From the NCBI GenBank assembly GCA_025356815.1, contig JANXQL010000137.1, positions 1-41,732 on the forward strand: a stretch of 41,732 nucleotides of DNA, given 5' to 3'. The notes under the pieces are model-generated. The model saw only the letters and a program-made list of their open reading frames with translations, was not told where the DNA came from and did no database searches. The stretch is from Pseudomonadota bacterium (GTDB taxonomy: Bacteria > Pseudomonadota > Gammaproteobacteria > Steroidobacterales > Steroidobacteraceae). The translations under genes were made by a program, and so were the position numbers. Shown piece by piece: positions 5,301 through 41,732 of this stretch. Every line of letters starts with the position of its first letter. The first letter of the stretch is position 1.

Positions 5301-5312
5301 GAGGAGAGTTGC

Positions 5313-6842: not shown

Positions 6843-6903
6843 TTCGCCACGGCGCGGCGACCGGCGCAATGCCGGCCGGCCTCGCGCCGCGGTGACCTGC
6901 ACC

Positions 6904-6930: not shown

Positions 6931-7056
6931 TTTGCGTCGCTGCGGCGGGGCGGTGCCCGGGGAGTGACGTGGTCGACGGGGATTTGGCGACGCACCGCAC
7001 AGATCGACCGCTGCGTCGGCGTGCGAGGCGCCGCTGGCCCCGTATACACTGCGCGG

Positions 7057-7809
7057 ATGATGTCCAGCGCAGGGAAGCCGTCGTTCGCGGGCCGTGTGCG
7101 GTGGCGCTGCCTGATCGTCGCCGCGTTGCTGGCGGTCGTCACGCCCGCGTGCCGCGCAGACGGTCCCTGGAGCGCCAGTGTCGGCGTCACGACCGACTAC
7201 GTCCTCAGGGGGGTCTCGCAGAGCTACGGCGGGGCCGCGCTGCAGGGCGCGGTCAATTACCAGAGCCTGGCAGGCTGGTTCGCCGGCGCCTGGGCGTCGA
7301 ACGTCGACCCGTATCCGTTCTATGCCAATGCGGCGGAGGTGAACCTCTACGCCGGCTACGACTGGGCACTGGGGCGGGACTGGAGCGCGCGGGCGAGCCT
7401 CACGCACTATCTGTATGCCCTCGACCCGCGGCGACGGCCCTACGACTACGACGAGGTGTCGCTGACCGTCGGCTACCAGGACCGGCTGGCCGCGACGATC
7501 TCCTACCAGCCCAACAGCATCCGCTACGCGACGCTCGGCTATCGGCGCAACAAGCCGTCGTCCTCGTATGAGTTGAGCGGGCGCTGGCCGCTGCGATGGA
7601 GCCTGTCGGTGACCGGCGGTGTCGGCTACTACGACCTGACCCACCTGTACGGCGTGGGCTACTGGTCCGGCAGCGTGGGGGTCGGCTACACGCGCGGCCA
7701 CCTCGAACTCGGGGTCACGCGGTTCTTCAGCGACGACACCGTCTACCGGCTCTTCGACGAGGGCACGGCCGACGGTCGCACGGTCGCGACCGCGCTGTGG
7801 CACTTCTAG
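7057..7809 (+). CDS. TorF-family putative porin (Gcw_chp type)
   Basis: The product is 250 aa from the ATG at 7057. The frame is open upstream to 6892, but that part runs through the terminator and has no signal-peptide character. A signal sequence (residues 10-33, ending near RADG) precedes WSASVGVTTDYVLRGVSQS, the hallmark start of TorF/Gcw_chp porins. After it come amphipathic beta strands, YAGYDW, and a C-terminal aromatic (ALWHF) as expected for BAM-dependent barrels. Family length is usually 220-260 aa, so it is complete. It should be an outer-membrane beta-barrel; the substrate is unknown. The gap to the ECF sigma gene is 42 nt, so co-transcription is possible. Confidence 0.85.
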   Translation: MMSSAGKPSFAGRVRWRCLIVAALLAVVTPACRADGPWSASVGVTTDYVLRGVSQSYGGAALQGAVNYQSLAGWFAGAWASNVDPYPFYANAAEVNLYAGYDWALGRDWSARASLTHYLYALDPRRRPYDYDEVSLTVGYQDRLAATISYQPNSIRYATLGYRRNKPSSSYELSGRWPLRWSLSVTGGVGYYDLTHLYGVGYWSGSVGVGYTRGHLELGVTRFFSDDTVYRLFDEGTADGRTVATALWHF

Positions 7810-7851
7810 CCCGGCGGAGCCGCAAAGGCCTGCGGTGAACTTGTCGGGGAG

Positions 7852-8508
7852 GTGAGGGTACCTACTGGCAAGGAACCCGGCCTCGGGCCGCGGCCAAACG
7901 GAATATCATTGGAAAAGTTAGATAAAATTCAAGAGGTTGGATCTCCTTCCGGAGCTGGCAATGAGCTCGAGCGGGAGTTGCTGCGGCGCATCAGCGGCGG
8001 TGACCGGGACGCGTTCCGGCAGCTGTACCTGCGCTACCACCGCAGGCTGGCGAGGTTCCTGTCGCGCGTCACGCGCGGCCGCGAGGATGCCGAGGAGATC
8101 GTCAACGACACGCTGTGGATCGTCTGGCAGCGTGCCGGCGAGTTTCGCAACGCCTCGCGGGTGTCGACCTGGATCATGGGCATCGCCTACCGGCGCGCCC
8201 TCAAGCTGATCCGGCGTGCCGCGACGCACTCACGGGTGATGTCGCTGGAGGGCGCCGAGCTCGAGGCGGTCGCCGTCGATGCGCTCGAGGCGGCCGACAC
8301 CCGCCAGATGCTCGAGCGGGCGCTCAAGCGCCTGCCGCTCGAGCAGCGGCTGGTGCTCGAATTTACCTACTACCTGGATCACTCGTGCGAGGAGATCGCC
8401 GAGATCATGGAATGCCCGGTCAACACCGTCAAAACCCGCATGTTTCACGCCCGGCGCAAGCTGCGTGCCGTGCTGGGTGAGGGCGCCTCGCCCAAGGCCG
8501 GAGGTTAG
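7852..8508 (+). CDS. ECF-type RNA polymerase sigma factor
   Basis: The product is 218 aa from the GTG at 7852, or 199 aa from the in-frame TTG at 7909. Region 2 is clear (DAFRQLYLRYHRRLARFLSR, then EDAEEIVNDTLWIVWQ, with FRNASRVSTWIMGIAYRRAL). Region 4 is also clear (LKRLPLEQRLVLEFTYYLDH, then CEEIAEIMECPVNTVKTRMFHARRKL). It should direct transcription in answer to envelope stress and be held by the anti-sigma factor encoded 1 nt downstream. The N-terminal 35 residues before region 2 look unstructured, and the DNA around 7900-7935 is unusually AT-rich. If the GGGTACCTACT element at 7856 is a promoter, the GTG start cannot be right and translation would start near 7909. Confidence 0.9.
   Translation: MRVPTGKEPGLGPRPNGISLEKLDKIQEVGSPSGAGNELERELLRRISGGDRDAFRQLYLRYHRRLARFLSRVTRGREDAEEIVNDTLWIVWQRAGEFRNASRVSTWIMGIAYRRALKLIRRAATHSRVMSLEGAELEAVAVDALEAADTRQMLERALKRLPLEQRLVLEFTYYLDHSCEEIAEIMECPVNTVKTRMFHARRKLRAVLGEGASPKAGG
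7856..7866 (+). promoter_or_regulatory. GGGTACCTACT element at the sigma-factor gene (copy 1)
   Basis: The 11-mer GGGTACCTACT occurs here, next to the start of the ECF sigma gene, and again just after its operon in front of the gene at 10633. In both places a TGTCGG lies upstream, but at different spacing (9 nt here, 4 nt there), so that part may be chance. It could be an autoregulated ECF promoter element; this is inference. Confidence 0.25.
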
Positions 8509-8509
8509 C

Positions 8510-9202
8510 GTGAGTATCGACCTGGAAGGGACCTCCTGCGACGCCGAGGCCGCGCGGCTGCTGCCGTGGTTCGTCAATGGCACGCTGGTGCCGGCGGACG
8601 CCGAGCGGGTGTCGCGTCACCTCGAGCACTGCGCCGTCTGCCGCGCCGACCTCGACCACGAGCGCGCGCTGCGCACGATCCTCAGGAACGACGGACCGAT
8701 CGAGTACGCCCCGCAGGCGGGCCTTGCGCTTTCGATGGCGCGGATCGACGAGATGACCCGCGACCTGCCCGTGGCCGATGCGCCGCCGCCGCCACGGGTT
8801 TCCCGCTGGCGCCGCCCGAGCGCGACCCAATGGCTCTCGGCCGCGGTGGTGGTGCAGGCCATCGGCATCGGCGTGCTCGGCTGGTCGGTGGCCGGCCGAC
8901 CGGGCGAGGACCGCGCGGCGCCGCGCTACCAGACGTTGTCTTCGGCGACGCCGGTGGCCACTGGGGTGCACCTGCGCGCGGTGTTCGCGCCGGCGATGAA
9001 GGTCGACGAGCTGCGCCAGCTGCTCGGCGCCCGGCGCCTGTACATCGTCGCAGGTCCCACCGATGCCGGCGTCTTCACCCTCGGTGCGCTCGATCCGGTC
9101 ACCGATGCGACCCGCGTGCAGGCGCTCCTGACCGACCTGCGCGGGCATCCCGAGGTGCTGTTCGCAGAGCCCGCCGCCGTCGACGGGACGTCCATCCGAT
9201 GA
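8510..9202 (+). CDS. Zinc-finger (zf-HC2) anti-sigma factor
   Basis: The product is 230 aa from a GTG 1 nt after the sigma-factor stop; the longer frame upstream overlaps the sigma gene and is not real. The N-terminus has the ZAS/zf-HC2 signature HxxxCxxC (HLEHCAVC, residues 44-51). One membrane span follows at about residues 105-126 (WLSAAVVVQAIGIGVLGWSV). The C-terminal 100 residues should be periplasmic. They look like a small alpha/beta domain (VHLRAVFAPAMKVDELRQLL, GVFTLGAL, VQALLTDLRGHPEVLFAEP) similar in kind to propeptide-like or ferredoxin-like sensor domains. It should bind and silence the ECF sigma factor at the membrane. Its stop overlaps the protease start (ATGA). Confidence 0.85.
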   Translation: MSIDLEGTSCDAEAARLLPWFVNGTLVPADAERVSRHLEHCAVCRADLDHERALRTILRNDGPIEYAPQAGLALSMARIDEMTRDLPVADAPPPPRVSRWRRPSATQWLSAAVVVQAIGIGVLGWSVAGRPGEDRAAPRYQTLSSATPVATGVHLRAVFAPAMKVDELRQLLGARRLYIVAGPTDAGVFTLGALDPVTDATRVQALLTDLRGHPEVLFAEPAAVDGTSIR

Positions 9203-10488
9203 AGCTCGCGGCACTGGCGCTCTTCGCGGCGACGCTCGCCGGCTGCGCATCGGGTCCGCCGCTGTCGTCGACCGCGACGCTGCCCGCGGCCGCCCGGGCC
9301 GTTCCCGGCGACTTCGTCGTCGTGACCATCCGCAATCCCATCGTGCCCGCACCGCTGCGCGCCGCCTCCACGCCGCGCGGCTACGATGGCGCGGGCACCT
9401 ACCGGGCCGGGGGTACCGCGCGCGCCGCCGGAGCCTCGCTTGCGGCCCAGTACGGCCTGCTGGAAGTGTCCAGCTGGCCGATCGCGATGCTCGGCGTGGA
9501 CTGCCTGGTGTACGGGCTGCCCACCGGCAGCGACCGCGCGCGGATGCTCGCGACATTGCAGCGGGACGGTCGCGTCGAGTCGGTGCAGCCCCTGCAGGCC
9601 TTCGATACCCAGGCCGCGACCTACAATGATCCGTACGCACCTTTGCAGAAGAACGTCGGCCAGATGGATATTTCCGGGGCGCATGCGTTCACGCGCGGCA
9701 AGGGCGTGCGCGTCGCCGTGATCGATACCGGCGCCGACCTCGGCCATCCGGATTTCCACGCGGGCGCGGCAAGAAGCCGCAACTTCGTCGATACCGACGC
9801 TGCGGGCTTTCTCGCCGACAGCCACGGCACGGCGGTGGCCGGCGTCATCGGCGCGGTGCCCAACAACGGCGTCGGCATTGTCGGCATCGCGCCCGAGGTG
9901 GACCTGCTGGTCTACAAGGCCTGCTGGCGCGGCACGGGCGGGGCACCTTCGGTGTGCAACACGTTCACGCTCGCGCAGGCGCTCGCGGCGGCGATCGAGG
10001 CGCACGCGGACATCATCAACCTCAGCCTCGGCGGTCCCAGCGATCCGCTGCTGACGCGCATCGTCAGGCATGGCCTCGAGGGCGGCGCGATCGTCGTCGG
10101 CGCCGTGCCCCACGACGGCCTGCGGCACGGCTTCCCGGTGGAGATCGACGGGGTGATCGCGGCCGAGGGCAGCGACGACGGGCGCGCCTCCCCCGGCATC
10201 CTGCGTGCGCCGGGCCGGGACGTGCTGTCGCTCGCGCCGGACGGGCACTACGACTTCTACAGTGGCAGCTCGCTTGCGGCCGCCGAGGTCTCCGGCGTGC
10301 TGGCGCTGCTGCGCTCGGAGCGGCCGCAGCTGACTGGCCGCGAAGCGGGCGTGCTGCTGGAGGGCTCCTCCCGCGCGGTCGGCGTCAACGCCTGCACGGC
10401 CCTGACGGCGCTGCTGCATCGGGGCCAGTGCGCCCCGACCCTCGCCTCGCCCACGGCGACGGCCGCCGCCCACCTCGACCGCCCCTGA
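9199..10488 (+). CDS. S8 (subtilisin-like) serine protease, lipoprotein
   Basis: The product is 429 aa. The ATG at 9199 overlaps the anti-sigma stop; the frame is open far upstream, but that part is antisigma DNA. The lipobox is TLAGC (Cys16). The N-terminal 140 residues may be a prodomain. The catalytic triad is complete: Asp176 in VAVIDTGAD, His209 in DSHGTAVAGVIGA, Ser358 in SGSSLAAAEVSG. The oxyanion Asn fits IINLSLGG. It should act in the periplasm or at the outer membrane. Placement in the sigma/anti-sigma operon suggests either an effector of the stress response or a protease that cuts the anti-sigma factor. The C-terminal 45 residues are low complexity. Confidence 0.9.
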   Translation: MKLAALALFAATLAGCASGPPLSSTATLPAAARAVPGDFVVVTIRNPIVPAPLRAASTPRGYDGAGTYRAGGTARAAGASLAAQYGLLEVSSWPIAMLGVDCLVYGLPTGSDRARMLATLQRDGRVESVQPLQAFDTQAATYNDPYAPLQKNVGQMDISGAHAFTRGKGVRVAVIDTGADLGHPDFHAGAARSRNFVDTDAAGFLADSHGTAVAGVIGAVPNNGVGIVGIAPEVDLLVYKACWRGTGGAPSVCNTFTLAQALAAAIEAHADIINLSLGGPSDPLLTRIVRHGLEGGAIVVGAVPHDGLRHGFPVEIDGVIAAEGSDDGRASPGILRAPGRDVLSLAPDGHYDFYSGSSLAAAEVSGVLALLRSERPQLTGREAGVLLEGSSRAVGVNACTALTALLHRGQCAPTLASPTATAAAHLDRP

Positions 10489-27266: not shown

Positions 27267-28208
27267 CTAGGCGACGCGCTCGACGTCGCAGGGGTCGTCG
27301 TCGACCTCGATGGGCTCGACGTCCACCTGCACCTGCAACTCGTGCCGACCGCCGCCGAGGATCGTGCCCCTGAGCGGCGAGACGTCGGCGAAGTCCCGGC
27401 CCCAGGCGATCGCGACGTGGTCGAGCCCGGCGGGCTTGTCGTTGGTCGGATCCAGGTCGATCCAACCGAACGGCGGCGCCCAGACCGAGATCCAGGCGTG
27501 CGAGGCGCCTGCGCCGACCGGCGTTGGCACCGCTGGCGCGTCGGACGGTGTCGCAACTCCGCGGACATAGCCGCTGACGTAGCGGGCGGCCAGCCCGTGC
27601 GCCCGCAGGCAGGCGATCATCACATGCGCGAAGTCCTGGCAGACGCCGCGTCGCTGTTCTAGCACCTCGGCGAGCGGCGTGCCTATTTCAGTGGTGCCCG
27701 GGGCATAGCTGAAGTCGCGGTGGATCTGGTGCATCAGCGCCAGCGCCGCGTCCGCGAGCGGCCGTCCCGGCGTCAGGCAGGGCGCCGCGTAGTCGGCGAA
27801 GACGCGTTTGATGCGCACATGCGCCGACTCGTGTCGAAAGCGCGCGGCCTCGAGCAGCTCGCGCGCGGGCGGCACTGCGCGATAGCGGAACTCCTCGACG
27901 ACGCGCTCCCACGCCAGCGACTCGTTCGCCGGCAGCCGCGGCCGGGCGTAGACGTCCACCTGCATGCGGCTGGTGACCGTCAGGCTCGTGTGCGGCACGT
28001 CGATCTCCAGCCGCACCAGGGGATTTCCGAACGCATCGACGCCGTCGCTGCGGTGGCCGGCCGGGATCACCTCGACGGCGTGCTCCAGGCATCGCTGGTA
28101 CGGCGCGGGCCGCGGCACCAGATGCAGCAACTGCTGCGAGATCATCACCTCGGCCTCGTACGAGTAGCGCGTGACATGCCGGACACGGTAGCGGACGCGG
28201 TTGATCAC
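27267..28208 (-). CDS. Transglutaminase-family protein (ATP-grasp/alpha-E cluster type)
   Basis: The product is 313 aa from the GTG at 28208, which overlaps the stop of the fused ATP-grasp gene. It has the bacterial transglutaminase-like N-terminal beta domain (residues 1-80: YRVRHVTRYSYEAEV). The papain-like core follows with a complete triad: Cys190 in RRGVCQDFAHVMIACLRAHG, His237 in ASHAWISVW and Asp253 in DLDPTND. No signal peptide, so it should be cytoplasmic. In this family the enzyme is thought to act as a peptidase or amidase on peptides; the true substrate is unknown. It is the last of three overlapping or near-overlapping minus-strand genes. Confidence 0.88.
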   Translation of the reverse strand: MINRVRYRVRHVTRYSYEAEVMISQQLLHLVPRPAPYQRCLEHAVEVIPAGHRSDGVDAFGNPLVRLEIDVPHTSLTVTSRMQVDVYARPRLPANESLAWERVVEEFRYRAVPPARELLEAARFRHESAHVRIKRVFADYAAPCLTPGRPLADAALALMHQIHRDFSYAPGTTEIGTPLAEVLEQRRGVCQDFAHVMIACLRAHGLAARYVSGYVRGVATPSDAPAVPTPVGAGASHAWISVWAPPFGWIDLDPTNDKPAGLDHVAIAWGRDFADVSPLRGTILGGGRHELQVQVDVEPIEVDDDPCDVERVA

Positions 28209-30664
28209 GACAGGATGGCGCGGGCGTCGAGCGTGATGTGGGCGAAGTGGCACGCGGCGATCCGGTCGGAGAGGCGCGCGGCGCCGGCGGCGAGCAGGTC
28301 GAGAGCCGTGGCGGTGGCCTCGCGCAGCGCGCTCCCCGCCGCGCCGGCCTGCTCCAGCGCCAGCAGTTCGTCGTCGCTGAGGTAGGGCAGCGGCGACTCC
28401 AGCTGGCCATCGACGCGCTGGTCGATCTCGGCGCTGACCTGGGCGAGATCCGCCGCGAGCCGCCGTTGCAGAAAGCCGATCGAGCGGGGGTGGTCTGCGT
28501 CCCGCACCAGCAGGTCGAGCATGGGCGCGAGCCGCGGGCTCGTCATGTAGCGCTGCCGGTAGAGGCGCACGCTGTCGAACGTGCCCAGCGCCCACTCGAC
28601 GTGCGCCGGCAGCAGGATCGATTCCTCGCGCAGGTGCAGCGCGAGCCGCAAGGCGGTGATCTGCAGCCGCTCTAGGCTGCGGCCGATGCGCAGCAGTCGC
28701 CAGCCGGAGTCCTGTGTCATGTCGTCGAGCGTGAAGCCAGCGAGCGCGGTGAGCGACACCGCGAGCGTATCGAGCGTCGCCGCGACCTGCTCGCGATCGG
28801 GCTCGCTGGACAGCAGGCGCTGCATCGTCGCGACCGCACCCCAGCAGCCGGAGGAAAGCCGTGCGCGGATCTGCCCGGCGCACCAGACCAGCCGGCGCAT
28901 GTCGGCCCGCAGGCCATCAGGATGCGTGTCATCGGCGAGCGCGAGCCGTACGTCGCCCTGCTCGGCGACGAGCCCCGTGCGTCGGCACTGCGCGAGAGCC
29001 ACCGGCCAGAGCCGCGGATCGATGCGCGCGCCGAGCGTCGAGCGTAGCAGGCGCGCCTTGTCCTCGGCGCGCGTGCCATACCGTCCGAACCAGAACAGGT
29101 TCTCGACGAGCCGCGAGGGGATCTCGTCCTGCGGGCGCGGCAGCCGCGTCGCGGCGGTCGACAGCGTCCGCTCGGGTGGGATCAGCGTGTCGCCCAGCAC
29201 CCAGACGTCCTTGCTGCCACCACCGCGCTGTGCGGAGACGATGTTGGCCTCGCCCGCCGGCGCGATGCGCGCAAGTCCCCCGGGGACCACCTCGAAGCTG
29301 TCGCCATGCGCGTGGGTCTGGATGCGAATCGATACGGCCTTGGCGGTCAGCGCATACGGCGGCCGGTGACGCCAGGCGGGTGCCTGCGACAGCGAGACGT
29401 ATTCCTGGCCGACGTAGGCATGGGGATAGCGGCGCAGCCGGCCGGTGAGTTCGGCGCGCGCCTCGCCAGACAGCGTCGCCCCGACGATCGGTTCGAAGCG
29501 CTGGTTCGGGTAGGTCGGCTTGATGACCAGTTCGGCCAGGTGCGTGAGCACATACTCCAGCGCCGGGCGCTCGCCGCACCACCAGGTGGCCACCGACGGC
29601 AGCAGCAGCGCTTCGTCGAGCAGGCGGCGTGCAATGGCCGGCAGGAAGCCGAGCCAGGCGGCCGACTCGAGCACGCCCGAGCCGAGCTCGTTGGCGATGC
29701 GCACACGGCCTGCGCGCACCGCGCCCAGTAGGCCCGGCACACCCAGCGCCGAGTCGCCGCGCAGTTCGAGGGGATCGCAGTAGTCGTCGTCCAGCCGGCG
29801 CAACAGCGTGTGAACGCGGCGCAGACCGCGCAGCGTCTTCAGGTAGAGCGTGTTGTCGCGCACCGTCAGATCCGGGCCCTCTGCCAGCGCGAGGCCCAGC
29901 CTGCGCGCGAGGTAGGCGTGCTCGAAGTAGGTCTCGTTGTAGGGCCCCGGCGTGAGCACGACCGCCAGCGGCGCCTCGCCCGGATCCACGGTCCGCAGCA
30001 GTTCGTCGCGCAGGCGCCCGAAGGCGCTGCCGATCCGGCGCACGTCGAGCGCGCCGAGTGGCCCGGGCAGGACCTGCTCGATGATCTCGCGGTTCTCCAG
30101 TGCATAGCCGCCCCCCGAGGGCGCCTGGGTACGGTCGGCCAGGACCCACCAGCGGCCATCGGCGCCGCGTGCAAGGTCGGTGGCGTAGATGCTCAGCCAG
30201 CGCCCCGAGGCCGGCTGCAGTCCGTGGCAGGCCCACAGGAAGTTGGGATGTCCGAACGCAATCTCGGCGGGGACAATTCCCTCCGCGATGAGGCGTTGCG
30301 GGCCGTAGAGATCAGCCAGCAGCCGATCGAGCAGGCGGGCGCGCTGCGCCAGGCCCGCCTCGAGCTGCGGCCATTCGGCCGCCGAGACGATCAGCGGCAG
30401 GGGATCGAGCGTCCACGGTCGGTCCGTTCCCTGCGGGTCCGCGTAGACGTTGTAGGTGACGCCGTTCTGGGCGATCAGCCGGCGCGTGTTCGCGATCGCG
30501 CGGCGCGCGAGGTCCTGCGGACCGGCGTCAAGCTGGCTGAACAGTGCCCGCCAGTGATCGCGAATCTGCCCGCTCGCATCCAGCAGCTCGTCATGGCGCG
30601 CCGGGTCACGCCGGTAGTCGGCCAGTATCGCGTCCATGCCGGGTTCGGGATGCGATGCGGGCAT
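28205..30664 (-). CDS. Circularly permuted type-2 ATP-grasp/alpha-E fusion protein
   Basis: The product is 819 aa from the ATG at 30664, 5 nt after the stop of the DUF2126 gene; the open frame upstream lies inside that gene. Residues 20-505 are a circularly permuted ATP-grasp domain (NGVTYNVYADPQGTDRPW, GPYNETYFEHAYLARRLGLAL, SAQRGGGSKDVWVL). Residues 513-815 are an alpha-E domain (SRLVENLFWFGRYGTRAEDKARLLRS). The ATP-grasp lysine region reads VIKPTYPNQRFEPIVG (Lys382), without the Gly-rich loop seen in the stand-alone copy at 34187. It is predicted to make an amide bond using ATP, with alpha-E as partner. The pairing is known from predicted peptide-modification clusters. Confidence 0.88.
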   Translation of the reverse strand: MPASHPEPGMDAILADYRRDPARHDELLDASGQIRDHWRALFSQLDAGPQDLARRAIANTRRLIAQNGVTYNVYADPQGTDRPWTLDPLPLIVSAAEWPQLEAGLAQRARLLDRLLADLYGPQRLIAEGIVPAEIAFGHPNFLWACHGLQPASGRWLSIYATDLARGADGRWWVLADRTQAPSGGGYALENREIIEQVLPGPLGALDVRRIGSAFGRLRDELLRTVDPGEAPLAVVLTPGPYNETYFEHAYLARRLGLALAEGPDLTVRDNTLYLKTLRGLRRVHTLLRRLDDDYCDPLELRGDSALGVPGLLGAVRAGRVRIANELGSGVLESAAWLGFLPAIARRLLDEALLLPSVATWWCGERPALEYVLTHLAELVIKPTYPNQRFEPIVGATLSGEARAELTGRLRRYPHAYVGQEYVSLSQAPAWRHRPPYALTAKAVSIRIQTHAHGDSFEVVPGGLARIAPAGEANIVSAQRGGGSKDVWVLGDTLIPPERTLSTAATRLPRPQDEIPSRLVENLFWFGRYGTRAEDKARLLRSTLGARIDPRLWPVALAQCRRTGLVAEQGDVRLALADDTHPDGLRADMRRLVWCAGQIRARLSSGCWGAVATMQRLLSSEPDREQVAATLDTLAVSLTALAGFTLDDMTQDSGWRLLRIGRSLERLQITALRLALHLREESILLPAHVEWALGTFDSVRLYRQRYMTSPRLAPMLDLLVRDADHPRSIGFLQRRLAADLAQVSAEIDQRVDGQLESPLPYLSDDELLALEQAGAAGSALREATATALDLLAAGAARLSDRIAACHFAHITLDARAILS

Positions 30665-30669
30665 CGGTG

Positions 30670-33600
30670 TCAGCGCCGGCGCAGGTCGAGCGTGAACGGA
30701 TACTCGGCCGACGGCGCCTCCAGGGGCGGTGCCAATCGACCCGGCGTGTGGCCGGTGCGCTCGAAGCGCGCCCGTCGCCGGCTTTCCGACTCGAAGGCGT
30801 TGACGGGAAAGGTGTCGTAGTGACGGCCGCCGGGATGCATCACGTGATACTGGCAGCCCCCGATCGAACGATCCATCCACGTGTCGACCAGATCGAAGCG
30901 CAGGGGTGCGTCGACGCCGAGCCCGGGGTGCAGCGAGGAGGCCGGGGCCCAGGCGCGGTAGCGCACGCCGCCGACATACTCACCGACCCGGCCGGTGGGC
31001 AGCAGCGGCACCCGCCGGCCATTGCACGCGAGCACGTAGCGGTCCGGCGCGAGTCCCGTAGTGCGTACCTCGAGCCGTTCGACCGAGGAGTCGACATAGC
31101 GCACGGCGCCGCCGCCACCGCCTTGCTCGCCCATCACGTGCCACGGCTCCAGCGCCTGGCGCAGCAGCAGCTGCATGCCGGCGACGGCGAAGTCACCGAT
31201 CTGCGGGAAGCGGAACTCCAGGTGCGGCGCGAACCAGCGCGACTGGATCGGCAGTCCGTCCGCCTGCAGCTCGGCGACCACGTCGTCGAAGTCCTGTTCC
31301 AGGAAGTAGGGCAGCATGAACCGATCGTGCAGCTCGCTGCCCCAGCGCACGAGGCGCGACGGGCGATAGGGCTTGTCCCAGAACCGTGCCACGAGGGCCC
31401 GCAGCAACAGCTGCTGCGCGAGACTCATGCGGGCATGGGGTGGCATCTCGAACGCACGCAGCTCGAGCAGCCCCAGTCGTCCCGCAGCGCCTTCGGGGGA
31501 GTACAGCTTGTCGACGCAGAACTCCGCCCGGTGGGTGTTGCCGGTGACGTCCACCAGCAGGTTGCGGAACAGCCGGTCGACGAGCCACGGCGACACCTCG
31601 CTGCCCGGCTCGGGCACCTGCGCGAGCGCGATCTCGAGCTCGTAGAGCGAGTCGTTGCGCGCCTCGTCGATTCGCGGCGCCTGCGAGGTGGGCCCGATGA
31701 ACAGGCCCGAGTACAGGTACGACAACGATGGATGATTGTGCCAGTACGCGACCAGGCTCGCCAGCAGGTCCGGCCGGCGCAGGAACGGAGAATCCGCAGG
31801 CGTCGCGCCGCCGAGCACGAAGTGGTTGCCGCCGCCGGTGCCCGTGTGCCGGCCATCGAGCATGAACTTCTCGGCCGCCAGTCGTGCCAGGCGCGCCGCT
31901 TCGTACAGGTGGGTTGTCTGCTCGACCAGCGCCGGCCAGCTCGCGGCCGGATGGACGTTGACCTCGATGACGCCGGGATCCGGCGTGATGCGCAGCACCT
32001 GCAGTCGCGGGTCGCGGGGGGGGTCGTAGCCCTCCAGGAGGACCGGCGTGTCGAGGCGCGCGGCGGCCCATTCAATCGCCGCGACCAGTTCGAGGTAGTC
32101 CTCGAGTTGGGCGAGCGGCGGCAGGAAGACATACAGCACGCCGTCACGCACTTGCGTGCACAACGCTGTCCGCACGATGCCCTCGGCGGAGACGCCGGGC
32201 GAGGGCGGCTGGCGCGTTGCGCTCGCCGCGCGCCGGCCCGGGTCCGGCTGCGGGCGGATGTTCGCCGTCGCTGCCAGAGGCGCGCGCACCACGCTCGGGT
32301 CCGCGGCGTGGACGTAGGGATAGTCGACCGCCCGTACCCAGGGTTGCGACTCCAGCGGCAGGCGATAGCCGAGCGGGGAGTCGCCCGGCAGCAGGTAACA
32401 GCGCTCGCGTCGCAGGAACCAGGGCCCGCTGATCCACGCGCGTTCGGCATTGTCGCGTGCCAAGGGCAGCACATGGCCGACGACGTGACCCAATCCGCTC
32501 TCGAAGACCGCGGCCAGTCGCCGCCGCTCCAGCGGATCCTCCAGGCGCGAGTCGAGCGGGTCGACGTTGACCGGCAGGCGGCGCTCCCGCAGCAGGTAGC
32601 AGAACGCGTCCTCGTAGGCGCGGAAGCTGTACGCCGCGCCGATGCCGAGCCGTTGCGCGACCAGTTCAAGCAGCTTGCCGCCGGTCGCGGTGGCCGTCCC
32701 TGCCGGCTGCGACTCGTCGGCAATCAGCGCGGAGTTGCGCCACAGCGGCAGTCCGTCGCGACGCCAGAAGCAGTTCAGAGACCAGCGTGGCAGCGGCTCG
32801 CCCGGATACCATTTTCCCTGTCCGAAGTGGGTCAGGCCGTGTGGCGCGTAGTGAGTCCGCAGCCGCTGGAAGAGATCGGCCGCGCGCTGTCGCTTGCGCG
32901 GCCCGAGCGCCGTGGTGTTCCACTCGGCGCCGTCAGGATCGTCGATCGAGACGAAGGTAGGCTCGCCCCCCATCGTCAGGCGGACGTCGCCCTGCACGAG
33001 CCGCTCATCGACGGCGTTGCCAGCGCTGACGATGCATCGCCACTCGTCCTCCGTGTACGGCTTGGTGACGCGCGGGGTCTCGGCGATGCGGTTGACCTGC
33101 ATCTGGTGGGAGAACTCGCACTCGCACTCGTCGATGGCGCCGCTGACCGGGGCCGCGGCGCCCGGATCGGGGGTGCACGCAAGCGGCAGGTGGCCTTCGC
33201 CGGCCAAGAGGCCAGAGGTCGGATCGAGTCCGACCCAGCCGGCACCGGGCAGGTAGACCTCGCACCAGGCGTGCAGGTCGGTGAAGTCCGCCGCCGGTCC
33301 CGCCGGACCTTCAAGGGGGCGAACGTCCGGCACCAGCTGGATCAGGTAGCCGGAGGCGAATCGAGCGGCAAGGCCCAGCCGCCGCAGCAACTGCACCATC
33401 AGCCAGGCGGAGTCGCGACAGGAGCCGGAGCCGAGCGTGAGCGTCTGCTCGGGTGACTGCACGCCAGGTTCCAGACGGATCAGGTAGGAGATCTGCTGCG
33501 ACAGGCGCGCGTTCAGTGCAACGAGGAAGTCGACGGTGCTCTCGTGCCGGTCCGGCAGCTCGGCCAGCAGCTCGGCCAGGCGCGGCGTCAGCGGCCCGAG

Positions 33601-33957
33601 CTCGCGGTAGGGTGCCAGCGAGCCGCGATCGACCTCGGCGTACTCGAACGGGAAGGCCCGCGCGTAGGGCTCGAGGAAGAAGTCGAACGGGTTGAGGACG
33701 GCGATTTCAGCCACGAGATCGACTTCGATGCGCAGCTCGTTCACCCGCTCCGGGAAGGTCAGCCGGGCGAGGAAGTTCGCGTTGGCGTCCTGCTGCCAGT
33801 TCACGAAGTGCTTCGCCGGCGTCACGGTCAGCGAATAGGACAGCACCCGGGTGCGGCCGTGCGGGGCGGGTCGCAGGCGCACGACCTGCGGACCGAGCTG
33901 TACCAACCGGTCGTAGCGGTAGTGGGTCACGTGGCGAAGGGCGACTTGGATCGACAC
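30670..33957 (-). CDS. Large transglutaminase-DUF2126 protein
   Basis: The product is 1,095 aa from the GTG at 33957, with GGAGAG 5 nt upstream; the frame is open to 34194, but the extra part is not conserved in character. Residues 1-85 are a transglutaminase N-terminal beta domain. Residues 155-260 are the core with triad Cys180 (GSGSCRDSAWLMVQLLRR), His229 (DLHAWCEVYLPG) and Asp245 (GLDPTSG). Residues 300-1,090 are DUF2126 (LTMGGEPTFVSIDDPDGAEWN, GGGNHFVLGGATP, HPSLSYLYSGLFIGPTSQAPR), a domain related in part to glutamine synthetase-like and amidoligase folds according to published analysis as I recall it. It is first in the minus-strand operon and divergent from the second ATP-grasp gene. 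Function unknown. Confidence 0.88.
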   Translation of the reverse strand: MSIQVALRHVTHYRYDRLVQLGPQVVRLRPAPHGRTRVLSYSLTVTPAKHFVNWQQDANANFLARLTFPERVNELRIEVDLVAEIAVLNPFDFFLEPYARAFPFEYAEVDRGSLAPYRELGPLTPRLAELLAELPDRHESTVDFLVALNARLSQQISYLIRLEPGVQSPEQTLTLGSGSCRDSAWLMVQLLRRLGLAARFASGYLIQLVPDVRPLEGPAGPAADFTDLHAWCEVYLPGAGWVGLDPTSGLLAGEGHLPLACTPDPGAAAPVSGAIDECECEFSHQMQVNRIAETPRVTKPYTEDEWRCIVSAGNAVDERLVQGDVRLTMGGEPTFVSIDDPDGAEWNTTALGPRKRQRAADLFQRLRTHYAPHGLTHFGQGKWYPGEPLPRWSLNCFWRRDGLPLWRNSALIADESQPAGTATATGGKLLELVAQRLGIGAAYSFRAYEDAFCYLLRERRLPVNVDPLDSRLEDPLERRRLAAVFESGLGHVVGHVLPLARDNAERAWISGPWFLRRERCYLLPGDSPLGYRLPLESQPWVRAVDYPYVHAADPSVVRAPLAATANIRPQPDPGRRAASATRQPPSPGVSAEGIVRTALCTQVRDGVLYVFLPPLAQLEDYLELVAAIEWAAARLDTPVLLEGYDPPRDPRLQVLRITPDPGVIEVNVHPAASWPALVEQTTHLYEAARLARLAAEKFMLDGRHTGTGGGNHFVLGGATPADSPFLRRPDLLASLVAYWHNHPSLSYLYSGLFIGPTSQAPRIDEARNDSLYELEIALAQVPEPGSEVSPWLVDRLFRNLLVDVTGNTHRAEFCVDKLYSPEGAAGRLGLLELRAFEMPPHARMSLAQQLLLRALVARFWDKPYRPSRLVRWGSELHDRFMLPYFLEQDFDDVVAELQADGLPIQSRWFAPHLEFRFPQIGDFAVAGMQLLLRQALEPWHVMGEQGGGGGAVRYVDSSVERLEVRTTGLAPDRYVLACNGRRVPLLPTGRVGEYVGGVRYRAWAPASSLHPGLGVDAPLRFDLVDTWMDRSIGGCQYHVMHPGGRHYDTFPVNAFESESRRRARFERTGHTPGRLAPPLEAPSAEYPFTLDLRRR

Positions 33958-34130
33958 GCGAGCTCTCCGGTGCGCTGGGTGCGCGAAGGGCGCCAGAATA
34001 ACCGTTCTCGGCGGCACTCTAGGGTGAGGTCGGCCAGACGTGGGCGGTGGATCGCACTCCTGCCCGGCGGGCGGCCGCCATGCGCAGGTTTGGTGCGCCC
34101 GATGCACCGTCCTGGGGCGGGCGTTGCCGT

Positions 34131-34160
34131 TTGAACCGAGCGCACCCGCACTGTTATGGT
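34131..34160 (+). promoter_or_regulatory. Possible promoter of the ATP-grasp/alpha-E pair
   Basis: TTGAAC (34131-34136) and TATGGT (34155-34160) are 18 bp apart, each 4/6 to consensus, and would give a leader of about 20 nt. This lies in the 229-bp divergent gap with the DUF2126 gene. On the minus strand TATTCT near 34000 could be a -10, but I found no matching -35. Confidence 0.35.
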
Positions 34161-34186
34161 CTGGACAGGTCGAGGATCGCCTGAGC

Positions 34187-35638
<1,452 letters not shown>

Positions 35639-35640
35639 CG

Positions 35641-36573
35641 ATGCTCGCGCGCACAGTCGAGAACGTCTATTGGCTGGCACGCTACCTGGAGCGTGCCGAG
35701 AATATCGCGCGCATGATCAGCGCCACGAGCAACGTCGTGCTCGACCTGCCGCGCGGCAGCACGCTGCAGTGGGCGCCGCTGATCACGATCACCGGCAGTG
35801 ACGCCGAGTTCGCGCGCCGTGGACTTGCCGCGGACGAGCGCGCGGTCGTCCACTTCCTGATCGCGGACGCTTCCAACCCGGGCTCCATCGTCGCCTCGCT
35901 GAGCGCGGCGCGTGAGAACGCCCGCACGCTGCGCGAGGTGCTGCCCACCGCGGCCTGGGAGCAGCTTAACCGCTTCTACCACGAGGTCGTCGACGAGGTC
36001 GCCGCGGGGCTGCTGCAGCGCAACCGGTTCGATCTGCTCAAGCGCGTCACCGTCAACTCGCAGGCGCTCAGTGGCCTGTTCGACGGCACGGCCAGCCGCA
36101 ACGACGCCTGGACTTTTCTGCAGCTCGGCCGCTATCTGGAGCGAGCCGACATGACCAGCCGCATCATCGACGTGCGCAGCGCCGAGCTTGCGCGGCCGTC
36201 GGCGGCCGAGGAAGACCCGTACGAGTCGATCAAGTGGATGAACGTGCTGAAGTCCCTGTCGGCCTACCAGATGTACCGGCTCGGCCGGCGCACGCGCGTG
36301 GCGCGGGGCGAGGTGCTCGACTTCCTGCTGCGCGACGGTCAGTTCCCGCGCTCATGTGCGTTCTGCCTGCGGCAGATGACGCTGGTGCTCGGGGCGCTGC
36401 CGCGCGCAGCGCAGGTGCTGGATGCGCTGGCGGCGGCGTCGCGCTACCTCGGCCAGGCCGAACTCGGGGCGCTCGACCCGCCGGCGCTGCAGCAGCTGAT
36501 CGACGAGGTGCAGGTGCATTTCAGCGCGGTGCACGCCGGCCTTGCCGGCACCTACTTCCCGGCGGCTCGCTGA
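35641..36573 (+). CDS. Alpha-E domain protein
   Basis: The product is 310 aa, all helical, starting MLARTVENVYWLARYLERAENIARMI, the signature of alpha-E proteins (DUF403). GGAGG lies 8 nt before the ATG. The internal repeat WTFLQLGRYLERADMTSRIIDVR resembles the first segment. It should act with the ATP-grasp enzyme encoded 2 nt upstream; a catalytic role has not been shown for this domain. It is the separate counterpart of the C-terminal half of the fused protein at 28205. A proteasome-like Anbu peptidase gene, often part of such clusters, is not found after it. Confidence 0.9.
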   Translation: MLARTVENVYWLARYLERAENIARMISATSNVVLDLPRGSTLQWAPLITITGSDAEFARRGLAADERAVVHFLIADASNPGSIVASLSAARENARTLREVLPTAAWEQLNRFYHEVVDEVAAGLLQRNRFDLLKRVTVNSQALSGLFDGTASRNDAWTFLQLGRYLERADMTSRIIDVRSAELARPSAAEEDPYESIKWMNVLKSLSAYQMYRLGRRTRVARGEVLDFLLRDGQFPRSCAFCLRQMTLVLGALPRAAQVLDALAAASRYLGQAELGALDPPALQQLIDEVQVHFSAVHAGLAGTYFPAAR

Positions 36574-36582: not shown

Positions 36583-38607
36583 TCAGCCGCGATAGCAGGT
36601 CAGGGCGTCGCCGAGCGCCGCGCGCAGCTCCCCCAGCCACGGCTCGTAGTGGCGCCACAGGTCGAGCCCCTCGCGGTAGATGGGCTGGCGCACCTGTTCT
36701 GAGCTTGCGGTGCGAATGCTCCGCTCGGTCTTGTGGAACTCGACGCAGCCCTGCTCGAAGCGCAGGCCGCAGTAGTCCAGGATCCTGCGTACGCTGCCCT
36801 CGAGGTCCTCGACTACGTCCTCGTGCTGGACCCGCAGTACTCGCCTCGGCAGTGCGCTGTTCCAGTGCGTCATCAGCTCCAGGTACGTTCGGTAGTAGCG
36901 GGCGATGTCGTCGATGCTGTAGCAGAACTCCTGCCCGCGGGCGAACAGTTGCTTGAGGTTGCCGAAGCAGCAGGCCATCGGCTCGCGCCGGGCGTCGATG
37001 ATCTTCGCGTTCGGCAGCATCAGGTGGATCAGGCCGACGTGGCGGAAGTTGTTCGGCATCTTGTCGATGTAGAACGGCTTGCCGGTACGGTAGATCCGCG
37101 TGTCGGCGAGGTACTTCTCGCCCAGCGCCAGGAACTCGTCCGCGGACATCGACGCCAGGCACGCCGGATAGCGCGGATTGCTGTAGTCCGGGTTGTAGCC
37201 CTGCAGGTCCAGCGCCGCGCGCGGGATGTTGGCCAGCTCCTGGGTGCCTTCCACCTGCGAATGCGAGGCGAGGATCTGCTCCAGCAGCGTCGAGCCCGCG
37301 CGCGGCAGGCCGAGGATGAAGATCGGCTCAGCGCTCGCCGCTCCCCAGCCCTGGCGCGCCTCGAAGAACGCGCGCGTGCAGGTGGCCTTCTGGTTCGCGG
37401 TGTTCTGCTCGAGCAGTTCCGGGCGGTAGCGGCTCTCGGCGCGCTTGAGTGCGTTGCCGCGCTCGTAGTAGCGCCAGGAGAGGTCGTACTGCTTAAGGTC
37501 CTCGTGGGCCTTGCCGAGTGCGAAGCACAGGTGGTAGCGGTCGATCGTGGCGATCGAGGGGTCCGCCTCGGAGGCCTGCAGGTGCGCGATCTCCTCGGCC
37601 GAGAACTGGTAGGTCTTGAGGTTCGCAAGGCTCCAGTACGCGTCGCCGAAGTTCGGGCGGACCGCGATGGCCTGGCGGTACTGCTCGACCGCCTCCGGGC
37701 GCCGGCCGAGCGTCTTGAGCGAGTGGGCGATCGACAGGTGCAGGTCGGCCGCGGCGCGCGAGCCGGGATCGGTGTCCGCGAGCACGGCGGAAAAGCCGCG
37801 GATGCCGCCTTCGTGGTCACCGAGGCCCACGGTCGCGGTGGCTCGCAGGGTCCGGTAGTCAATGCTGCGGGGGTCGAGCTTGAGCAGCGTGTCGAGCTCA
37901 GCCAGCGCCTCGAGATGCTTGTGGCGGTCGAGCAGCACGCAGGCGTAGTCGCGCCGCAGCTCGATGTAGCCCGGTTCCATCTGCAGCGCCGCTGACAGCA
38001 GGATCTCGGCGTCGTCGAGGATGTCGTGCGCCACTCCGAGGCGGGCGAGCAGGCGCATGGCCTCGACATGATCGCCATGCTGCAGCAGGAACGCCCGGAT
38101 CAGCTTCTCCGACGCGACCAGGTCGCCCTCGCAGAACAGCCCGGTCGCCGTGACCACCTGCGCCGGCATGGCCTTGAGCTTCTGCGCGTGGTCCGCAGCC
38201 ACCTGCTGGTGTTCGCGGTCGCCGATCAGCTTGTACAGGCCCTCGAGCATGCCCCAGGTGGCGGGCAGGGCGGGGTTGATGCGCACCGCCTGCTCATAGG
38301 CCTCGATGGCGTGTGGGGCGTCCTTGAACGCGACGTAGCAGTGGCCACGCTCCTGATAGAGCAGGCTCGCGCCGGGGTGGTGGCGCTCCATGTCGGTAAG
38401 CGTCGCCAGGGCATCGCTGACTCGACGGGTCTGGCGCTGGCCGAGCGCCAGCAGGTAGAGCACGTCGCGGTTCTCGGGGTAGCTCGCGCGCAACGTCGCG
38501 GCCGCCGTCACCGCGTCCTCGAAGCGCTGCTCCCGCAGCAGCTCGCGAATCCGCTGCACCTCGAGCTCGGCACTGGCGGGCGCTGGCGGCTGTGACGTCA
38601 CCGTCAT
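36583..38607 (-). CDS. Tetratricopeptide-repeat sulfotransferase
   Basis: The product is 674 aa from the ATG at 38607, chosen because an open extension to 38673 runs through a terminator hairpin. Residues 10-400 hold about ten TPR units (ALPATWGMLEGLYKLIGD, PNFGDAYWSLANLKTYQF). Residues 425-670 are a PAPS-dependent sulfotransferase: 5'-phosphosulfate loop in FILGLPRAGSTLLEQILASH, followed by IDKMPNNFRHVGLI and the 3'-phosphate site IIDARREPMACCFGNLKQLF. It has no signal peptide. It should move a sulfuryl group from PAPS to a small molecule, peptide or glycan, with TPRs giving partner binding. Such genes are often found near TonB-dependent receptors in related bacteria. The acceptor is unknown. 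Confidence 0.9.
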   Translation of the reverse strand: MTVTSQPPAPASAELEVQRIRELLREQRFEDAVTAAATLRASYPENRDVLYLLALGQRQTRRVSDALATLTDMERHHPGASLLYQERGHCYVAFKDAPHAIEAYEQAVRINPALPATWGMLEGLYKLIGDREHQQVAADHAQKLKAMPAQVVTATGLFCEGDLVASEKLIRAFLLQHGDHVEAMRLLARLGVAHDILDDAEILLSAALQMEPGYIELRRDYACVLLDRHKHLEALAELDTLLKLDPRSIDYRTLRATATVGLGDHEGGIRGFSAVLADTDPGSRAAADLHLSIAHSLKTLGRRPEAVEQYRQAIAVRPNFGDAYWSLANLKTYQFSAEEIAHLQASEADPSIATIDRYHLCFALGKAHEDLKQYDLSWRYYERGNALKRAESRYRPELLEQNTANQKATCTRAFFEARQGWGAASAEPIFILGLPRAGSTLLEQILASHSQVEGTQELANIPRAALDLQGYNPDYSNPRYPACLASMSADEFLALGEKYLADTRIYRTGKPFYIDKMPNNFRHVGLIHLMLPNAKIIDARREPMACCFGNLKQLFARGQEFCYSIDDIARYYRTYLELMTHWNSALPRRVLRVQHEDVVEDLEGSVRRILDYCGLRFEQGCVEFHKTERSIRTASSEQVRQPIYREGLDLWRHYEPWLGELRAALGDALTCYRG

Positions 38608-38625
38608 GAAATTACCTACAAAAAC

Positions 38626-38653
38626 AAAGGGCGGACATCGCTGTCCGCCCTTT
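38626..38653 (-). terminator. Strong intrinsic terminator after the TonB-dependent receptor gene
   Basis: AAAGGGCGGACA and TGTCCGCCCTTT form a perfect 12-bp stem with a 4-nt loop. On the minus strand it is followed by GTTTTTG. It ends 18 nt before the ATG of the sulfotransferase gene, so read-through or a promoter within the hairpin region is needed for that gene. The A-rich flank also gives a possible T-run on the plus strand, but nothing there needs it. Confidence 0.88.
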
Positions 38654-38696
38654 GAGTGTACCGCAACCGTCACCGGCCGCGGTCGAGTCGCTCAGA

Positions 38697-41411
38697 TCAG
38701 AACTTCAGGGCGACCTTCACGCCGAGGACGCGCGGACGCAGCGGCAGCTCCGCCTTGATGAACTGACCGCTCGAGGTGAACGTGCTGGCGTTCTCGTTCG
38801 AGAGGTTCTGCCCATAGACCTGCACGTCCCACGCATCCTTCGAGATCCCGAAGGTGGCGTCGTAGGTGTTGTAGGACGGCTGCTTGTAGCGCAGCCAGGT
38901 CGTGTAGGGCACCGGCACGCCTTCGCCCGATGGGAACGAACTCGGCTGGTTGTTCATGTCGTCCGTGTGGTTCATGCCGACCATCGCGAACGCCTTGTAG
39001 TCGCCGCTCGTCCAGTCGTAGCGCGCACGCATGTTGAACTGCAGCTTCGGCGAGAAGGCCGGCGTGTCGCCGACCGCGCCGAGCGGGTTCGTCAGTGCCA
39101 CGTTCTTGCCGCCGATGCGCACCTGATCGATGCACGTGCCCTTCGGGATCGGGTTGCCCGGCGTGTACAGGGTCACGCCCGCCGACACGAGGCACGGCGA
39201 GGTCGTCTGCTTGGCGTCGTTGTCCGACAGCGAGCCCATCAGGGTCAGGCCGTCGGTCACCTTCGCCGTCACCTGCAGCTCGAAGCCCTTGACGCGATAC
39301 GTCGGTCCGTTCGTGCCGAACGTCGTATTGCCGTAGGCGGTCGGGTTGTAGATCAGCGTCTGCACGTCCTTCCAGTCCATCTGGTAGTACGAGCCGTTCA
39401 CCTGCAGGCGGTGGTTCAGGAACTCGGACTTGAAGCCGATCTCATTGTTGACCAGCGAGTCCGGCGCGAAGCTGAGCGGCTTCACGAACTGGTTGACCCG
39501 GTGCGCGCCCGCGACGGTGCTGGCGAGCACTTCGTTCGGGAGCGGCACGCCGGCTGCATCGAGCCACAGGCGGGTCACGCCCTTGGTCGTGCGGTTGAAC
39601 GCGCCCGGGCGGTAGCCCTGCGAGAACGTGTAGTAGACCATCGTGTCGGCGGTCGGGTGCCAGGTGAGGTTGGCGCGGCCCTTGACGCCGGTGAACTTCG
39701 CGGTGTGCAGTTCCGAGTCGCGGATGCCCGTGACCGGATTCGGATCGAGGCCGCCACCGATCGGCGTGGCCAGGCAGTCGCCGTTCGCGACGTTGACGCA
39801 AGCGCCACCGGTGCCGTACTGGGAACCGACCTCGTTTTCCGTGTACTTGTAGTAGCGCGCGCCGACCGTCGCGGTCAGCACCTTGGGGATGATGTCGTAG
39901 TCGATGGAGGCGAACGCCGCGGTCTGCTTGTAGCCGCGCTGCAGGTCCTCGCCGAAGTTCACGTAGTCGTTACGCGGATTCGGATTGATGGCCGCGTTGA
40001 TCGGCGTCACGTTGCCGAGGCAGATCGGACCGCCATCAAGTGCCGCCGCGAGGTTCGCGGTCGTGCAGGACGGGATCGTCTTCTGCAGGAAGTCCATGCT
40101 GTCCTTGATCTGGAAGTCTTCCCAGAACAGGCCGACGAGGCCGCGCAGGCGGTTCTCGTCAGGCGTGGCGAGACGGAATTCGTGGCTCTGGTGGGTGCTC
40201 TCGATCTTGTCGTGCCAGCCCATGACCGGCGAGTAGCAATGCGCCGGACCGGCGCCGCCGAAGTTCGAACCGCCGCCGCCGACGCAGGAGTAGTAGAACC
40301 CGCCCGGCGTGCGCGCGTAGTTCGTGTAGTCCATGTTCTGGTCGACGTGACGGGTCATGTACGCGCCGGTATAGACCAGCTTGAGGTCGCCGGCCTTGCC
40401 GTTGAGGGTCCACGCCGTGCTTGACACCTTGTCCTTGTTCCACGCCGGCATGAACGACGTCTCTTCGAGCGGGCCAAGCGGGGTCAGGCCGACGCCGATT
40501 GGCATCTGGACGCTCATGCCTTCGGCGTCCATGTTCTGGTAGCTCTGCTGGACCAGCGCGCTCCAGTCGTCGTTGAACTGGTACAGCGCCGACAGGCGGA
40601 AGCCCTGGTAGCTGACCGGGTTCTGCGCGCGCTTGGCGATGGCGTAGTTGTTGTACGTGTCCAGCTGCGCCGGGTACGACGAGCTGTAGGCGCTCGGACC
40701 GGTGTCGACGGCCGGGTTGCGCGTGAACGTCGTCGGGACGTTGTCGATGTAGCCGCCGCGGTGATCGTTGTAGAACACGCCGCGGACTGCGAGCTTGTCG
40801 GTGATCAGCGGCAGGTTCAGCACGGCGGTGAGGGCCGTGTTCGGATCGCCGTGGGCGGTGGTGCCGTAGCTCGCCTCGGCGCGGCCCTCGGTCACGTTCA
40901 GCTTCGGCTTGTTGGTGATGTAGCGGATCGCGCCGGCCTCGGCGCCACCGCCGAACAGCGTGCCCTGCGGACCTTCGAGAACTTCCACGCGCTCCATGTC
41001 GACCATGTAGATGTCGAGGTTGCGCGCCGGGAAGGTCATCGACTGGTCGTCGAGGTAGGTCGCGACGTTCGGGAACGGCGCGATCGAGGCCGAGGACTGG
41101 CCGCCGGCGAAGCCGGCCGACAGGCCGCGCATGAAAATGTTGCCCTGACCCGGGCCGTTGGTGCCAAAGGTCACGTTCGGCAGCATCTTGATGACGTCGT
41201 CGAAGGTCGTGATGCCCAGCTTCGACAGCGAGTCGCCGCTGATGGCCTGAATCGTGATGGGGACGTTCTGAATCGACTCCGACCGGCGCTGGGCCGTGAC
41301 AACGATCTCTTCGATGCCGAACGAATTGGTGGCATCGGCGGCAAGGGCCGCGCCGGCTGGCGCGGCAAGCGCGGCCATGATGGCGTAGGCGAGTTTCGGA
41401 TTGGTTTTCAA
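38697..41411 (-). CDS. TonB-dependent receptor
   Basis: The product is 904 aa from a TTG at 41411, chosen because GGAGA lies 5-6 nt upstream and the N-terminus is then a clean signal peptide (MKTNPKLAYAIMAALAAPAG, cut near ALAA|D). An open frame to 41729 has no such features. FGIEEIVVTAQRRSES (31-46) is a TonB-box-like start. The plug follows (VPITIQAISGDSLSKLGITTFDDVIKMLPNVTFG; LEGPQGTLFGGGAEAGAIRYITNKP), and the barrel ends at RPRVLGVKVALKF with a terminal Phe. No N-terminal STN domain, so no FecR-type signalling. The ligand is unknown; it could be a peptide, glycan or siderophore. Confidence 0.93.
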   Translation of the reverse strand: MKTNPKLAYAIMAALAAPAGAALAADATNSFGIEEIVVTAQRRSESIQNVPITIQAISGDSLSKLGITTFDDVIKMLPNVTFGTNGPGQGNIFMRGLSAGFAGGQSSASIAPFPNVATYLDDQSMTFPARNLDIYMVDMERVEVLEGPQGTLFGGGAEAGAIRYITNKPKLNVTEGRAEASYGTTAHGDPNTALTAVLNLPLITDKLAVRGVFYNDHRGGYIDNVPTTFTRNPAVDTGPSAYSSSYPAQLDTYNNYAIAKRAQNPVSYQGFRLSALYQFNDDWSALVQQSYQNMDAEGMSVQMPIGVGLTPLGPLEETSFMPAWNKDKVSSTAWTLNGKAGDLKLVYTGAYMTRHVDQNMDYTNYARTPGGFYYSCVGGGGSNFGGAGPAHCYSPVMGWHDKIESTHQSHEFRLATPDENRLRGLVGLFWEDFQIKDSMDFLQKTIPSCTTANLAAALDGGPICLGNVTPINAAINPNPRNDYVNFGEDLQRGYKQTAAFASIDYDIIPKVLTATVGARYYKYTENEVGSQYGTGGACVNVANGDCLATPIGGGLDPNPVTGIRDSELHTAKFTGVKGRANLTWHPTADTMVYYTFSQGYRPGAFNRTTKGVTRLWLDAAGVPLPNEVLASTVAGAHRVNQFVKPLSFAPDSLVNNEIGFKSEFLNHRLQVNGSYYQMDWKDVQTLIYNPTAYGNTTFGTNGPTYRVKGFELQVTAKVTDGLTLMGSLSDNDAKQTTSPCLVSAGVTLYTPGNPIPKGTCIDQVRIGGKNVALTNPLGAVGDTPAFSPKLQFNMRARYDWTSGDYKAFAMVGMNHTDDMNNQPSSFPSGEGVPVPYTTWLRYKQPSYNTYDATFGISKDAWDVQVYGQNLSNENASTFTSSGQFIKAELPLRPRVLGVKVALKF

Positions 41412-41732
41412 GACGGTCTCCCCGAGGGCGGTGGTTCGAACATTCAAGACAGGCAACTCAAAAAAACTTCCGCGCGGGCGCTTCGCGCCGCGGGCGGACT
41501 TCAGGCTTCGTCGCGCTCCATTGCAGGCGCACGTCGCGGACACGCGTATCCAAGCAGCGTGGCACGCAGCAGCGAGCGCGCCACTGCGAGCAACACCAAG
41601 CTGATCCTGTAGCACTCCCCTGACAGCGGCGTTTTTACAACACTCACCGCTTTCGATCATCTTACCTATTGCACCATTGCGGTTTGGTGACATGCAATGC
41701 TTTGGGGCGACTTTTTCACGAACTGTCATCCA
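41412..41732 (-). other. 5' region of the TonB-dependent receptor gene (non-coding, to window edge)
   Basis: This 321-bp stretch holds no gene I accept; the 106-codon extension of the receptor frame is judged accidental. It contains the terminator-like hairpin at 41470. Near 41668-41698 there is a dyad, ATTGCA (41668-41673) with TGCAAT (41693-41698), with the inner ACC/GGT also pairing. This second dyad could be an operator. I could not place a promoter with confidence; it may lie beyond the window. Confidence 0.4.
41460..41493 (-). terminator. Terminator-like hairpin in the receptor leader (possible attenuator)
   Basis: On the minus strand CCGCG-GCGC, a GAA loop and GCGC-(CCG)-CGCGG form a 9-bp stem with a 3-nt bulge (41493-41470), then AAG and seven Ts (41466-41460). 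It lies about 50 nt upstream of the receptor start codon and in the same direction, so it would cut the leader transcript unless relieved. Confidence 0.5.

Follow-up and report, generated by a model that had tools for sequence, protein, structure and literature searches.

The window analysed here is the whole 41,732-nucleotide (nt) contig JANXQL010000137.1 of a Steroidobacteraceae bacterium (Pseudomonadota; assembly GCA_025356815.1). At positions 27267–36573 it carries a five-gene cluster of transglutaminase-like (TG), circularly permuted (CP) ATP-grasp and alpha-E proteins, together with a likely glutamine synthetase (GS)-like domain, DUF2126. One of its two ATP-grasps, fused to an alpha-E domain, lacks the predicted catalytic residues that the separately encoded (split) copy retains. 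We tentatively favor reading the cluster as a system that makes and cuts amide bonds, probably brought into use at times of nitrogen shortage. The layout of five intact open reading frames (ORFs) given in a preliminary description of the sequence is borne out: they fill the interval with all frames open, and their Pfam matches score far above the cut-offs.

27267–28208, minus strand: small TG protein, 313 residues, GTG start; PF08379 (1.9e-22) and PF01841 (5.3e-22).
28205–30664, minus strand: fused CP ATP-grasp/alpha-E protein, 819 residues; PF14403 (5.7e-142) and PF04168 (4.5e-46).
30670–33957, minus strand: large TG protein with C-terminal DUF2126 (TG-DUF2126), 1095 residues, GTG start; PF09899 (E = 0, 1310 bits), PF08379 and PF01841.
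33958–34186: divergent intergenic (promoter) region.
34187–35638, plus strand: split CP ATP-grasp protein, 483 residues; PF14403 (550 bits over 34427–35557) and 3n6x (E = 5.1e-155).
35641–36573, plus strand: split alpha-E protein, 310 residues; PF04168 (276 bits).

The two ATP-grasp forms were compared in an alignment of 78 fused and 36 split copies from the loci compared, copies with a short matched stretch being dropped. Residues E167, N169, D326, D327, K328 and K375 are kept in 36/36 split copies and the Gly-loop positions in 35–36; the window's split protein has all six residues and a GSGGYG loop. In the window's fused protein LADRTQ replaces LEDNLR, and the GSGGYG loop is absent. Not one fused copy retains E167 (A in 40, S in 23, G in 10, N in 4, R in 1), N169 (R in 76, H in 1, Y in 1), D326, D327 or K328, and the Gly-loop pattern is met by 1/78 fused versus 35/36 split copies. 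In Granulicella, Tsukamurella and Sphingomonas, too, the fused proteins have lost the predicted catalytic residues; a Paenibacillus protein and the split proteins from Deinococcus and Tsukamurella keep the motifs. Because many other residues of the fused set stay fixed, for example Q107 and R108 in 78/78, the loss represents a conserved change and not decay. Judged from sequence, the fused ATP-grasp is probably catalytically dead and no ligase, while the split copy is predicted to be an active one. Of the two ATP-grasp enzymes of the preliminary description, one keeps its predicted residues and one probably does not ligate. That description also took the split pair for the divergent one; the PF14403 score of the fused protein (476 bits, against 550 for the split) and the tree described below identify the fused pair as the sequence outlier. 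It had further proposed that loss of ATP-binding residues in homologs would mark a decaying cluster. Such loss is seen in the fused ATP-grasp, but it is conserved across the clade, and decay is rejected given five open frames, two conserved TG triads and invariant DUF2126 positions in 16 relatives.

In the alpha-E part of the fused protein, the second ER motif is well kept (E665 in 67/69, R666 in 68/69). Loss of the first was considered and rejected (E in 60/69, R in 65/69, four gaps); the window's own copy has T at residue 531 in place of the first-motif E, and a few other copies differ there too. An AlgH/YqgE match to residues 569–642 (E = 8.5e-4 in NCBIfam, 0.049 in the PDB) lies far below the curated cut-off and is taken as chance. 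The split alpha-E protein is all helical, with an AlphaFold2 predicted local distance difference test score (pLDDT) of 90.9.

An ATP-grasp tree of 50 rows, with eight fused rows put in and a warning of long branches from the tool, places the fused ATP-grasps in one clade (100/100) and the split ATP-grasps in another. The window's split copy belongs to a starred set of 11 that includes three rows from Anbu-bearing loci, and the ATP-grasp copy on contig C173 of the same genome lies in a different starred set. The three ATP-grasp/alpha-E pairs of this genome are old paralogs. The duplicated pair described earlier is present as two pairs, but the separate fused and split clades, and the different starred sets of the window split and C173 copies, reject a recent duplication.

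Both TG proteins have full Cys-His-Asp triads, as had been claimed. The small TG triad, C190-H237-D253, is kept in relatives (Cys 74/74, His 74/74, Asp 73/74), and the large TG triad, C180-H229-D245, in 85/85 large TGs. Most of the large protein is DUF2126, an 818-residue predicted GS-like ligase domain overlooked in the first list of parts. A structure model and Foldseek comparison suggest that a GS-like fold is likely, the nearest folds including GmaS and 1-naphthylamine GS; identity to the fold matches is 6–15% in the rows listed and, unlike these enzymes, DUF2126 is fused to a TG domain. We take the domain to be circularly permuted. Many of its positions are invariant across 16 relatives, and that of Granulicella (Acidobacteriota) is 45% identical over 835 residues.

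Relatives were drawn as the best 80 of at least 587 confirmed in named genomes, a sample that leans to near kin; adding nine stretches taken from relatives, and the window itself, gives a comparison set of 90 loci, 87 of them with the DUF2126 gene. Where at least 5 kb lies beyond that gene, its strand also carries the fused gene in 71/71 loci and the small TG in 70/71, the exception (L139) ending in the contig. The window follows the same arrangement, its genes for TG-DUF2126, the fused protein and the small TG sharing a strand, and this core is also found in Granulicella. In L136 the fused and small TG pair lies upstream of the DUF2126 gene. The split pair is within reach in 28/58 loci. In Burkholderia sp. 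TSV86 (L113) six genes follow one another, encoding the split ATP-grasp and alpha-E, a third TG, TG-DUF2126, the fused protein and the small TG.

Spacing within the cluster is as first described. On the minus strand, TG-DUF2126 is followed after a 5-nt gap (30665–30669) by the fused gene, which overlaps the small TG gene by a 4-nt GTGA (28205–28208); on the plus strand, a 2-nt gap (35639–35640) separates the split ATP-grasp and alpha-E genes. As the set comprises two divergent transcription units, this tight spacing supports co-production inside each unit, but not, as had been supposed, across both.

Nitrogen control of the gene family is well supported. A scan with an author-built consensus matrix (score at least 10, within 150 nt upstream; a few rows are fragments) found sigma-54-like −24/−12 matches before 43/84 TG-DUF2126 and 24/41 split ATP-grasp genes, against 5/79 fused genes, 5/74 small TGs and 32/711 control ORFs, the controls including spurious ORFs and the related species not being independent. 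NtrC-like dyads (score at least 17) precede 15/84 TG-DUF2126 and 10/41 split ATP-grasp genes versus 1/79 fused genes and 16/589 controls. RpoN and NtrC are both encoded in the window's genome, and the window has a modest sigma-54-like match, equalled in score by 2% of 200 shuffles:

34112–34128, plus strand: sigma-54-like −24/−12 match CTGGGGCGGGCGTTGCC, 75 nt upstream of the ATP-grasp start codon (ATG); weak, score 12.2.

The Burkholderia cenocepacia genes I35_5080-83, encoding ATP-grasp, alpha-E, TG and large TG in the order of the first four genes of L113, are listed with −6.0 to −9.4 for an ntrC mutant, taken here as fold changes; NtrC/sigma-54 control has been measured there, and no function is named in the excerpts (PMC5491218). 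Excerpts also tie the gene set's domains to urea metabolism in marine metagenomes (PMC3597751) and cite nitrogen induction of Anbu (PMC5666114). Nitrogen starvation is likely to be the inducing condition of the gene set, nitrogen control of the window's own copy being a possibility.

A profile search finds no Anbu in the window, as the preliminary description had it, but Anbu is encoded elsewhere in the same genome. The only match lies on contig C173 (L008), in a canonical Anbu operon, followed by a 308-residue ORF (4658–5584, minus strand) that matches nothing in Pfam or NCBIfam at E 0.001:

8426–9841, minus strand: ATP-grasp.
7482–8426, minus strand: alpha-E.
6663–7469, minus strand: TG.
5869–6600, minus strand: Anbu.

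Among 397 Pseudomonadota genomes, DUF2126 occurs in 129, Anbu in 161 and both in 81. Anbu is thus found in 81/129 genomes with DUF2126 and 80/268 without (odds ratio 4.0, Fisher P = 6e-10, uncorrected for phylogeny). Since no Anbu is detected in 48/129 DUF2126 genomes, a cluster without a neighboring Anbu does not depart from the norm. Place tables, read by eye, show Anbu and DUF2126 no more than about 11 kb apart in at least nine genomes (G065, G069, G075, G092, G100, G196, G301, G401 and G419); Anbu directly precedes TG-DUF2126 in G069 and G100 and follows it in G401 and G075. Eight regions were inspected for such nearness, seven of them from these nine genomes. A cross-genome search for Anbu or a small peptide gene near the cluster had been suggested. 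In the main locus set Anbu lies inside 2/58 loci with room on both sides, and also in L074, which lacks such room, but no small-peptide or accessory gene recurs at a constant position next to the core in different genera (ORFs of at least 50 residues, clusters in at least 10 loci). The largest neighbor-ORF clusters cover 16 loci; their displayed members are Pseudomonas except in one cluster, which also has L073 and Marinobacter L109 and is scattered from −6.8 to +11.4 kb. An aldehyde dehydrogenase beside the core in 11 loci was rejected as a Pseudomonas neighbor with only a distant match in the window.

Iyer et al. 2009 reportedly predicted a peptide-tagging system of CP ATP-grasp and GS-like ligase, NTN peptidase and alpha-helical domain, the same combination of parts as here. 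Domain content confirms the placing of the cluster in this amidoligase/transglutaminase/alpha-E class. The window set shares its ATP-grasp, alpha-E and TG families with the Anbu operon, and at 34187–36573 has split CP ATP-grasp followed by alpha-E as in that operon; it differs in being without Anbu and in adding the TG-fused DUF2126 and the fused, probably inactive ATP-grasp/alpha-E. The rlo operon of Pseudomonas aeruginosa likewise combines an ATP-grasp, a transglutaminase-like protein and a peptidase; however, as excerpted, its RimK-likened ATP-grasp, inactive membrane TG and aspartic protease are of other families (PMC12239564). PADLOC anti-phage defense models returned no family for any of the five cluster proteins.

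Elsewhere in the window, a di-heme cytochrome c peroxidase/MauG-like protein (PF03150; 25940–26971, minus strand) lies just past the cluster. A tetratricopeptide repeat (TPR)-sulfotransferase (36583–38673) and a TonB-dependent receptor (38697–41729), both on the minus strand, stand directly after the alpha-E gene. The product of a gene at 5313–6842 (plus strand) matches DUF5666, a domain of unknown function, twice.

What is seen directly is the domain content, the intact triads, the likely GS-like fold, the conserved order and the loss of predicted catalytic residues from the fused ATP-grasp; the mechanism we infer goes mostly beyond these. DUF2126, being GS-like, would spend ATP on linking an amine to an acid, which by analogy could be glutamate or a glutamyl peptide. 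Its fused TG domain and the small TG encoded apart from it could then cut or exchange that amide through their Cys-His-Asp residues. The fused ATP-grasp/alpha-E protein, no longer ligating, might serve as a substrate-holding or scaffold subunit, and the divergent split pair would be the true ligase, of the Anbu-operon type, adding further residues. Anbu encoded elsewhere in the genome may trim the products in some species without being required. More speculatively, the fused protein would be a clade-wide conserved pseudo-ligase that presents substrate within a TG/GS-like make-and-break amide machine, present in several phyla and in many Pseudomonadota controlled through NtrC/sigma-54 at low nitrogen, with or without Anbu, to form a nitrogen-responsive amide tag or store.

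Several observations weigh against this account. The pseudo-ligase status of the fused ATP-grasp is a reading of its sequence, and the position of K375 is still K in 56/78 fused copies. E167, N169 and K375 are putative metal and nucleotide ligands, so named from likeness to motifs of Escherichia coli Gss, and the profile alignment of the ATP-grasp to Gss is not significant, the motifs alone looking alike. Confidence in the DUF2126 model is middling (pLDDT 69.6), and its best Foldseek match is 8.5e-3, none passing 1e-3. The window's sigma-54-like match is not conserved in G008, the nearest relative with the cluster. The fused gene is missing from the inspected stretch in 3/7 Anbu-near loci (G401, G075 and G419, the last starting at a contig end), and the stretches inspected in Sphingomonas and Tsukamurella show the fused-TG pair without DUF2126, so the parts also act apart. 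Finally, the literature searched, mostly open-access, yielded no known substrate or product of the gene set, in agreement with the preliminary description, and contained neither a report of an inactive fused ATP-grasp nor a paper on DUF2126 by name.

Three other explanations were considered, each of them unlikely. An extension of the preliminary description would make the cluster an assembly line for a peptide or metabolite, with DUF2126 and both ATP-grasps as active ligases and with TGs that attach or cyclize the product. The split ATP-grasp and DUF2126 do look intact, and what Iyer et al. 2009 predicted for the class, cited in excerpts of PMC5666114 and PMC6376114, favors it; but all checked copies of the fused ATP-grasp have lost the predicted catalytic residues, and no conserved small-peptide ORF lies at a fixed place by the core. 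Of similarly low probability is protein tagging, whereby the ligases would add a peptide tag, the TG-like enzymes remove it as peptidases, and Anbu degrade or trim tagged proteins. The co-occurrence of Anbu with DUF2126, and their nearness or adjacency in some genomes, speak for this, but more than a third of DUF2126 genomes have no detected Anbu, the association is uncorrected for phylogeny, and Yersinia Anbu, according to an excerpt, showed neither peptidase activity nor a stable operon partner (PMC6376114).

GmaS and PuuA gamma-glutamylate small amines for catabolism. DUF2126 could do the same in a salvage of amine nitrogen, the TG-like enzymes releasing glutamate and ammonia; we consider this the least probable of the three. 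It would suit the nitrogen control, the GmaS and 1-naphthylamine GS folds near that of DUF2126 and the urea link in marine metagenomes (PMC3597751), but it leaves the ATP-grasp/alpha-E units unexplained, and no accessory enzyme or transporter has a fixed place beside the core.

The gene set is one member of a widespread, common bacterial class for which making or cutting of amide bonds is predicted, and DUF2126 occurs in about a third of the sampled Pseudomonadota genomes (129/397). What the present analysis adds to this class is a probable pseudo-ligase, the statistics on promoters, Anbu's location and the overlooked GS-like domain. The ligases worth assaying are DUF2126 and the split ATP-grasp; with the fused copy probably dead and nitrogen starvation the likely inducing condition, the prediction can be put directly to experiment.
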